Assembly (NCBI RefSeq): GCF_004134825.1
Contig: NZ_SDPN01000006.1
Coordinates: forward strand, 1 to 64,000
Source of the DNA: Agromyces albus
GTDB taxonomy: Bacteria; Actinomycetota; Actinomycetes; Actinomycetales; Microbacteriaceae
Reading direction: 5' to 3'
Length of the DNA stretch: 64,000 nt
Below the pieces are notes generated by a model. The model worked only from the letters and a program-made list of their open reading frames with translations, made no database searches and had not been told where the DNA came from. This document shows, one piece after another, positions 60,833 to 62,407 of this stretch; the stretch's first letter is position 1, and each line of letters begins with the position of its first letter. The position numbers and the translations under genes were made by a program.

Positions 60833-62383
60833 TCAGAAGAGGGCCGCCGGATCCGCCGGGCTGCCGAAGACCTCGGGAAGCTCGACGGCCGCTCCCCCGG
60901 TGAGCGCAGTCGAGCGGATGCCGCCAGTGACCGGATCTTCGCGACCGCGCTCGAGCCCGTGCGCCCTGATCAGCGGATGGATCCGTTCGCCGAGCCAGCG
61001 CCGGTACGCCTTCGGAGCGTAGGCATTGTTGCCGTAGTACATCGACCGATACTTCGGCACGAGCTCGGGGTGTTCTCGTTCGAGCCACTGCATGAACCAG
61101 GGTTTCACGCCGGCCCTGAGATGCAACGCGGTGTAGAGCACACTCGTGGCGCCGGCGGCCTTCGCCTGCCGCAACGCATCGTCGAGGTGCGCCTTCGTGT
61201 CGGTGAGGTACGGCAGGATCGGCATCAGGAAGACCGCGCAATCGAGCCCGGCCTCCCGAACCGCCGAGACCGTGGCGAGCCTCGCCTTCGCACTGGGCGT
61301 GCCCGGCTCGACCGATTGCTGCAGCTCGTGATCGTAGATCGCGATCGACATGGCGACGTCGACGGGCACGAGCTTGGCCGCCTCGACGATGAGCGGCAGA
61401 TCGCGGCGCAGCAGCGTGCCCTTCGTGAGGATGCTGAACGGCGTGCCGCTCGTGGCGAGCGCGTCGATGATGCCGGGCATGAGCGAGTAGCGGCCCTCGG
61501 CTCGCTGGTACGGGTCGGTGTTCGTGCCGAGCGCCACCGCGTCGCGCCGCCACGACGGCTTCGCGAGCTCGGTGCGCAGCACGTCGGCGACGTTCACCTT
61601 CACGATGATCTGCCGATCGAAGTCGTCGCCGGCGTCGAGGTCGAGGTACGTGTGCGTGGGCCGCGCGAAGCAATTATGGCTGACGACTCCGTTCGCGATG
61701 AAGTCACCCGTCGTCGTCGTGATGTCGAGCATGTCGACGTCTTCGCCGAGGTCGTCGATCGCGACGATGCCGAGGTCGGAGGTGGTCTTCACCATTGCTC
61801 CGACAAGTTGCAACACGGATGGGGCGCGACCGACGCCTCGGCTCCCGAACCCGATCAGCGAGTTCGCCGTGGTGAGGTATGGGCGCTGCCCGGGGCCCGA
61901 CATCGCTCCGGTCACATGCTTCCACCCGCGATTCGTCAGGAATCGGTGATCGCCGCTGGCGATGAGCTCGGTGCCGTCGGCGAGCGATACGCGGTGCGCG
62001 CGTTTGCGCGTCTCCCACTTCGCGAGAACCTTCGAAGCCGTGTACCTGCGGAATCCGTCGACCACGTGCGTACCGAGCACTTCGTCGCCGACCTCGACCG
62101 ACCACAGCGGCTGTTGTCTACCGTCTGCCATCGTGATCGAGGTCTCGGGACCGAGGCAGTAGGCACAAGCATGGGTGCAGCCCCTGTAGGGGTTGATGGT
62201 CCAGCCGAAGGGCATCGCGGACTGGCCCGGAACTTTGTTGAGCGCGGACTTCGCGAGAACCTCGTGGAACGTCACCCCGGCGAAATCGGGGGTCTGCACC
62301 GAGCGCACGAGGTTGTTGAGCTTCGCGAGGCCCGGCAGCGCGTCGGACTGCTCCACGCCGAGTTCCTGCCCGCTCCACCTCAT
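60833..62383 (-). CDS. Rv2578c-family radical SAM protein interrupted by an intein
   Basis: 516 aa precursor. The host protein starts MRWSGQELGVEQ. It contains the radical SAM cluster loop CTHACAY/CFARPTHTYL (CxxxCxxC), the Rv2578c-type YRGCTH and TNTDPYQRAEGRYSLMPGII, TKGTLLRRDLPL, SIAIYDHELQQ and FLMPILPYLTDT. The two halves are separated by a 162-residue intein (61673-62158); splicing would restore CAYC. I choose ATG 62383 over 62401, because the latter lies inside the SOS box. The function of the Rv2578c group is unknown; it resembles spore photoproduct lyase-like/SPASM-free radical SAM repair candidates. Confidence 0.88.
   Translation of the reverse strand: MRWSGQELGVEQSDALPGLAKLNNLVRSVQTPDFAGVTFHEVLAKSALNKVPGQSAMPFGWTINPYRGCTHACAYCLGPETSITMADGRQQPLWSVEVGDEVLGTHVVDGFRRYTASKVLAKWETRKRAHRVSLADGTELIASGDHRFLTNRGWKHVTGAMSGPGQRPYLTTANSLIGFGSRGVGRAPSVLQLVGAMVKTTSDLGIVAIDDLGEDVDMLDITTTTGDFIANGVVSHNCFARPTHTYLDLDAGDDFDRQIIVKVNVADVLRTELAKPSWRRDAVALGTNTDPYQRAEGRYSLMPGIIDALATSGTPFSILTKGTLLRRDLPLIVEAAKLVPVDVAMSIAIYDHELQQSVEPGTPSAKARLATVSAVREAGLDCAVFLMPILPYLTDTKAHLDDALRQAKAAGATSVLYTALHLRAGVKPWFMQWLEREHPELVPKYRSMYYGNNAYAPKAYRRWLGERIHPLIRAHGLERGREDPVTGGIRSTALTGGAAVELPEVFGSPADPAALF
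61673..62158 (-). other. Mini-intein (162 aa) inside the radical SAM gene
   Basis: The intein starts with Cys (CLGPETSITMADG, block A) directly after the extein CAY. It has a block B-like LIASGDHRFLTNRGW with the conserved His, a block F VDMLDITTTTGDFIANG, and ends GVVSHN followed by extein Cys. All splicing residues (Cys1, B-block His, penultimate His, terminal Asn, +1 Cys) are present. There is no room for a homing endonuclease, so it is a mini-intein. The +1 Cys is the third iron-sulfur cysteine of the host. Confidence 0.93.
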
Positions 62384-62391
62384 ACCGACAT

Positions 62392-62407
62392 TCGAACACA
62401 TGTTCGA
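62392..62407. promoter_or_regulatory. LexA (SOS) box upstream of the radical SAM gene
   Basis: TCGAACACATGTTCGA is a perfect match to the Gram-positive/actinobacterial SOS consensus TCGAAC-N4-GTTCGA. It ends 8 nt before the chosen start codon (62383), a position where LexA would block transcription. To my recollection the mycobacterial homolog Rv2578c is also LexA-regulated. Confidence 0.85.

Follow-up and report, generated by a model that had tools for sequence, protein, structure and literature searches.

An apparently freshly derived mini-intein at a cluster cysteine of a radical SAM gene, probably under SOS control, in Agromyces albus

The first 64,000 nt of contig NZ_SDPN01000006.1 of Agromyces albus (hereafter the window) encode a radical SAM protein whose cysteine motif is interrupted by an insert. 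The copies encoded there are referred to as the window gene and the window intein. An intein placed among cluster ligands raises the question of whether it is a control device kept by the host or a selfish element that survives at a sensitive site. Comparison with related loci suggests that the mini-intein is freshly derived from a mobile parent form and that the radical SAM gene is probably SOS-controlled.

The insert and its host gene

The window gene lies in a stop-free ORF of 522 residues on the minus strand (60833-62401). The match to the family model NF038135 starts at residue 7 (MRW), which makes 62383-62381 the likely start codon, and the ATG at 62401, given as the start in the ORF list, falls within a LexA-type box (Table 1). 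The assignment to the Rv2578c family of radical SAM proteins was borne out, as the whole protein scored 507.6 bits against NF038135 (cut-off 430). It also scored 726.4 bits (cut-off 700) against NF038136, the NCBIfam model "intein-containing Rv2578c family radical SAM protein"; the intein–host pair was thus previously modelled by NCBI. The NF038136 model is 574 positions long and holds about 257 intein residues by difference from the 317 of NF038135. Host and site are alike in the model and the window, whereas the window copy, which passes the cut-off, lacks roughly profile positions 182-288. Among open-licence papers none was found that joined an intein with Rv2578c or an intein with Agromyces, and a PDB sequence search with an intein-free host protein (L040) gave nothing below E 0.047.

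The junctions read C-THA-C-AY | C1 ... SHN | C-FARPTH, so that the insert directly precedes the third cysteine of a CX3CX2C motif, and removal of the insert from the protein leaves CTHACAY-C. On codon reading, 62158 to 61673 encode Cys1 ... His-Asn and the following codon, 61672-61670, encodes Cys+1; the boundaries and the site proposed in the initial annotation are therefore exact. The splicing residues that it claimed are present as well: Cys1, SGDH and DITT (blocks B and F), the terminal HN and Cys+1, the last being, as had been claimed for a cluster ligand, the third cysteine of CX3CX2C. The insert thus has the residues of a class 1 intein (Cys1, [T/S]xxH, block F Asp, penultimate His, terminal Asn and Cys+1), and Cys1 is its only cysteine. 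Its 162 residues (below about 200) contain no homing endonuclease domain, which agrees with the description as a mini-intein: LAGLIDADG families gave no match at E <= 1 and the LAGLIDADG motif is absent too.

Taken alone, the insert scored 31.6 bits against Pfam Intein_splicing, under the cut-off of 35.8, which explains why this profile had no match in the whole genome at E <= 0.001; family-specific models were used in its place. A search of the genome with the window intein returned only the self-match and no second copy. The AlphaFold model of the intein, built with 28 aligned relatives, had a mean pLDDT of 92.5 with the lowest confidence in residues 111-120. All 50 Foldseek matches listed were inteins, bacterial-intein-like or hedgehog Hint domains (best E 7.6e-9), the best among those listed being BIL2, gp41-1, M. 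smegmatis DnaB and Npu DnaB inteins. The PDB sequence search with the intein was weak (best gp41-1, E 0.00036) and it was Foldseek that settled the Hint fold. Among 53 inteins read at this site, all had the block F sequence D[ILV][ST]T and the terminal HN, the latter not required by the search pattern, and 47 had the block B sequence [ST]xxH. Judged by these features, the window insert is a class 1 mini-intein of a known kind.

Table 1. Features of the window around the interrupted radical SAM gene
Feature	Position	Strand	Basis
Intein-interrupted Rv2578c-family radical SAM gene	60833..62383	-	NF038135 and NF038136 scores
Cys+1, splicing nucleophile and third cysteine of CX3CX2C	61670..61672	-	sequence
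Class 1 mini-intein, 162 residues, Cys1 ... His-Asn	61673..62158	-	splicing residues, family score, predicted Hint fold
Deletion scar, 555 bp (LAGLIDADG region) missing relative to L115	61810..61814	-	ungapped DNA comparison
Cys-3 in the N-extein, second cysteine of CX3CX2C, which may pair with Cys1 in a redox trap	62165..62167	-	sequence and precedent
Cys-7, N-extein, first cysteine of CX3CX2C	62177..62179	-	sequence
LexA-type SOS box TCGAACN4GTTCGA, palindromic, 24 bp before start codon	62392..62407	.	motif search and relatives

Full-length, shortened and empty alleles at one site

The genus set comprised 60 genomes, the window's included; all were searched and a family match was obtained in 59. 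Intact full-length inteins of 344-350 residues were found in 15 genomes and mini-inteins in five (the window intein, 162 residues; L113, 170; L117, 196; L125, 167; L128, 154). In 36 of the 60 the gene is intact and empty, with zero residues at the site, which answers the concern that homologues might hold a continuous segment belonging to the fold. Four genomes remain. In G051 the gene is truncated at a contig end, and in G056, a draft of 97% completeness, no family match was obtained. At the empty locus of G011 (L144) the frame changes about 20 nt past the intein site, within a short run of C; as slippage or a sequencing error would look no different there, we make no claim of a scar left by endonuclease mis-repair. 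In G045 (L121, about nt 1199-2266) a full-length intein has a single frame change within the endonuclease, both halves being otherwise well kept; a recent break or a sequencing error may account for this, a split form being less likely. Genome G030 has, on a different contig (C2), a second, divergent radical SAM copy (L145) with neither an intein nor a LexA-type box (best site with 6 mismatches).

At the level of the phylum, 82 of 396 genomes matched the intein model at E <= 1e-5, many of these matches being weak, partial or perhaps to other inteins, and 36, window included, scored below 1e-20. Of the 29 phylum loci fetched (window excluded), 28 had the intein at the CX3CX2|C site; in four of the 28 (L161, L168, L171 and L174) the reading stopped at an internal HN, and the site was verified from the N-side junction only. 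L182 was truncated by a contig end. Two loci outside the genus escaped the pattern and were left uncounted: L048, with Phe for Tyr at -1, and L056, truncated ahead of its N-side junction; the pieces of both belong to this type of intein. All seven mycobacterial loci in the set were empty.

The origin of the shortened form is best seen in L115 (G020, same genus), whose intein of 347 residues is full-length with both LAGLIDADG motifs and a LAGLIDADG_3 match of 33.2 bits (cut-off 22.5). The two inteins occupy the same site and are 94.4% identical in amino acids over the 162 residues (exteins 98.4%), and the window intein corresponds to that of L115 minus 555 bp in frame, which explains the whole length difference. 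In an ungapped DNA comparison 444 of 486 bases were identical and the break lay between nt 345 and 348 of the intein, inside the model block of lowest confidence. The deletion ends in L115 share CTG (3 bp), where the window reads TTG. The comparison suggests that the window endonuclease was lost recently, most simply by one in-frame deletion of 555 bp.

The other four genus mini-inteins have deletions of 531, 453, 543 and 570 bp relative to the nearest full-length form, and the five have five differing endpoint pairs, those of the window and L113 being near-identical at the 5' end and not at the 3' end. A deletion common to L113 and L117 was rejected, as neither nests in the other when both are compared with L119, which is not necessarily their exact parent form. 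The 196-residue mini-intein of L117 (G036) keeps the first LAGLIDADG motif, and the LexA-type box of this locus is decayed (3 mismatches). Both motifs (RGD and DAEG) are kept in all 15 intact full-length genus inteins; a stricter motif pattern had overlooked the second motif of L127. Of all 53 inteins read, whether from the genus or beyond it, 22 have both motifs, 11 have a second motif without its Glu, two have only the first and 18 have none. The 11 are all from Pseudonocardiaceae (L065, L072, L075, L077, L079, L085, L086, L088, L089, L090 and L096), with 283-349 residues and the endonuclease region kept, and are likely dead endonucleases heading for deletion. The site presents a graded series of endonuclease decay.

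A comparable situation is described for the PRP8 inteins of fungi, where full-length, mini and empty alleles occur at one site in related species, as here; in the available text of that paper, intermediate lengths or endonuclease remnants are not reported, in contrast to the five endpoint pairs and the remnant motif of L117 (PMC1508164). How a full-length form becomes a mini-intein is a question raised in the same text (PMC1508164), and the answer from this genus is ordinary in-frame deletions with scattered ends and no single precise event. Full, decayed and empty alleles are what the homing-cycle model leads one to expect, and all three kinds occur here at one site in one genus of 60 sequenced species. 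The five separate endonuclease deletions, one leaving a motif behind, make a clear natural series, and we regard this allele series as the valuable part of the finding.

For the inheritance of the intein, an extein tree was made of 57 genus rows and one outgroup; L121 and L144 (frame changes) and L146 (contig edge) were left out of the genus trees and the dN/dS analysis, and L145 was retained in the extein tree, where it has a long branch. Presence and absence of the intein took 16 changes on this tree, at least 12 of them forced by starred branches, while shuffled data took 16.8 on average and 187 of 500 shuffles were as low as 16. The five mini-inteins alone took five changes. Presence of the intein is thus unclustered on the genus tree, so usefulness need not be invoked; the proposal that the element has been retained for being useful becomes superfluous, given a full-length sister, five deletions, 15 intact and 36 empty alleles. 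On the extein tree the nearest relatives of the window gene are L115 and then L017, the nearest empty relative. The extein of the window is 98.4% identical in amino acids to each, and these matched natural alleles (empty, full-length and mini) allow a clean test of host regulation by an intein at a cluster cysteine.

The intein and extein trees were concordant near the tips, and distances in the two were correlated (Mantel r 0.69, a value reached in 0 of 9999 permutations), a correlation compatible both with homing and with vertical descent accompanied by many losses. Neither topology survived an AU test on the data of the other tree (p 0.00018 and 2.4e-6), which calls for some transfer or recombination. 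Our reading is that the intein has mainly been passed on vertically and often lost, probably through recombination with an empty allele, and that some transfers took place as well. Intein dS exceeded extein dS in 188 of 190 genus pairs, the exceptions by ratio being L124/L125 (0.49) and L113/L117 (0.92); recent interspecies transfer is therefore unseen, except perhaps for L124/L125. A recent transfer between the window and L115 was likewise unsupported (intein dS 0.333, extein dS 0.167).

Between the window and L115, dN/dS was 0.09 for the splicing domain and 0.047 for the extein. The endonuclease had a median of 0.25 (104 of 105 pairs), about equal to that of the splicing domain (0.25), with 0.10 for the pair L029-L126. 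Purifying selection appears to act on splicing and, where the allele is full-length, on the endonuclease as well, which according to the accessible part of PMC1654191 is expected while an element spreads in the homing cycle. Most of the low dN/dS of the window intein may predate the deletion, so that continued splicing of the shortened form is only inferred. If the mini-intein had lost splicing, the gene would be a pseudogene with a dead insert. The gene may indeed be dispensable, as one of the 60 genomes (G056) has no match and two (G045 with L121, G011 with L144) carry frame changes; nevertheless, the intact reading frame, catalytic residues and extein, the low extein dN/dS to the sister L115 and the high confidence of the Hint model make such decay highly improbable.

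Altogether, these data make it very probable that the insert is a selfish class 1 intein at a fixed site of Rv2578c-family genes in Actinomycetota, which in this species lost its LAGLIDADG endonuclease, most simply through the one recent 555-bp deletion, and survives because it presumably still splices. Read directly from the data are the site, the splicing residues, the predicted Hint fold, the full-length sister, the deletion point, the patchiness and the purifying selection. Splicing would proceed by an N-S acyl shift at Cys1, transthioesterification to Cys+1 and cyclisation of Asn162, then an S-N shift. It would restore CX3CX2C, so that the enzyme, presumably produced under LexA control, could take its cluster.

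Cluster ligands and the control of splicing

According to the initial annotation, the unspliced precursor could not assemble the cluster and splicing acted as an on-switch. The sequence does not give that: in the precursor (CTHACAY-C1) Cys1 takes the place of the third cysteine, and CX3CX2C is found before and after splicing, in the window as in every intein with a readable N-side junction. Cys-7, Cys-3, Tyr-1, Cys1 and Cys+1 were found in all 53 inteins read, a circular result, as the search pattern required them. A non-circular check is that the pattern lost no intact genus allele (the rows missed were L121, L144 and L146), and in the 80 named loci the only inteins that escaped it were that of L048, where Phe stands at -1 with the same cysteines, and that of L056, where the N-side junction is cut.

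The precursor is probably inactive simply through a 162-residue domain in the cluster loop. A switch in which the precursor is short of its third ligand and splicing is an activation step kept by evolution could point to this very likely inactive state of the unspliced enzyme and to Cys+1 being the third cysteine of the motif. We consider it very unlikely, since that cysteine is provided by Cys1 in the precursor, splicing activates any host with an active-site intein, and the patchy presence across the genus speaks against a kept function; the claim of an on-switch finds no support here.

Control by oxidation has more in its favour. MoaA is a radical SAM enzyme, as is the protein encoded in the window. 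In the MoaA intein of Pyrococcus abyssi a native disulfide between Cys-3 and Cys1 blocks splicing under oxidation, as described in reviews (PMC10663303, PMC3922620). The N-extein Cys-3 adjoins Cys1 in the window too, as this type of redox trap requires, and the pairing of the two in a CX3CX2C enzyme would imply the same intein position in MoaA and in the window. The two differ in that the P. abyssi protein is archaeal, another enzyme, and with reported redox control, while for the window such control is only possible. By analogy, this MoaA intein appears a closer redox precedent than those cited initially, and redox control of window splicing is chemically plausible.

A switch of this kind would join Cys-3 (or Cys+1) to Cys1 upon oxidation and halt splicing, so that an oxygen-labile enzyme would be freed only in reducing cells. 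Besides the placement of the cysteines as in the P. abyssi natural redox trap, Cys1 being the sole intein cysteine means that any disulfide must involve extein cysteines, and the redox-trap structure 3nzm is among the Foldseek matches listed (rank 49). On the other hand, these cysteines are required for catalysis and cluster binding and accordingly occur in every allele, which makes them uninformative about regulation; 36 of 60 genus genomes encode this enzyme uninterrupted by an intein, and intein presence is unclustered on the tree. We therefore regard a redox switch as unlikely, if worth keeping in mind, and the window intein as no evidence for a maintained switch.

A LexA-type box ahead of the gene

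No site in the window other than TCGAACACATGTTCGA at 62392-62407 comes within one mismatch of TCGAACN4GTTCGA, the actinobacterial LexA box. Taken for the window by itself this carries little weight, as 23 of 100 shuffles had such a site too. The genome (4,291,429 bases) has five exact sites and none for the reversed pattern. Another exact site precedes imuA' (NF058630). The other three adjoin a GTP diphosphokinase gene and two genes of no clear family, none of which was recognised as having an SOS role. The box upstream of recA has one mismatch and that of lexA two, the latter being weak as other two-mismatch sites occur by recA.

The conserved place of the box in relatives is stronger evidence than these window or genome counts. 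The best site at the radical SAM gene stands 23-25 bp ahead of the start codon in 56 of 57 genus rows, the exception being the second copy L145, and in 77 of 85 others, among which L040 was counted, probably the same gene as genus row L026. The box is exact in 42/57 and 37/85 rows and has at most one mismatch in 54/57 and 66/85, respectively, while single-base shuffles gave 0 or 1 mismatch in 0/1140 (genus) and 0/1700 (others). Five of the seven mycobacterial loci have the exact box.

The LexA boxes printed in the available part of PMC9380542 agree with TCGAACN4GTTCGA. In the same text, the LexA regulon of S. venezuelae includes a radical SAM gene, vnz_31145, induced 20-fold by mitomycin C and with a LexA ChIP peak, which is only a possible relative of the window gene (PMC9380542). 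The LexA-type box ahead of the radical SAM gene is new here. From its position and its retention in most relatives, the enzyme, the intein and, in full-length alleles, the endonuclease are probably SOS-induced, and we infer that DNA damage would induce the window gene; the earlier idea of testing DNA-damaging conditions would thus gain support at the level of transcription.

A combined form of control can be envisaged, in which LexA gates transcription while splicing is gated by Cys-3, Cys1 and Cys+1 as a triad, or else by iron or zinc bound to the precursor motif CX3CX2C1, together with SOS-coupled homing of full-length alleles. If true, an oxygen-labile, repair-type enzyme would be made upon DNA damage and released only in a reducing cell, and the LexA box would time the endonuclease of full-length alleles to the abundance of RecA. 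We give this combination a small chance. In the open-licence literature searched, no paper that joins inteins and homing with LexA and the SOS response appeared, from its listing, to deal with such coupling. The kept LexA-type box also bears on the function of Rv2578c-family enzymes, for which a link to DNA repair is called speculative in the available part of PMC12924846. That text also names the integration site of phage Samy, the Rv2578c-family gene SAM40697_5543 of Streptomyces ambofaciens (PMC12924846), so that two kinds of mobile element target this gene family.
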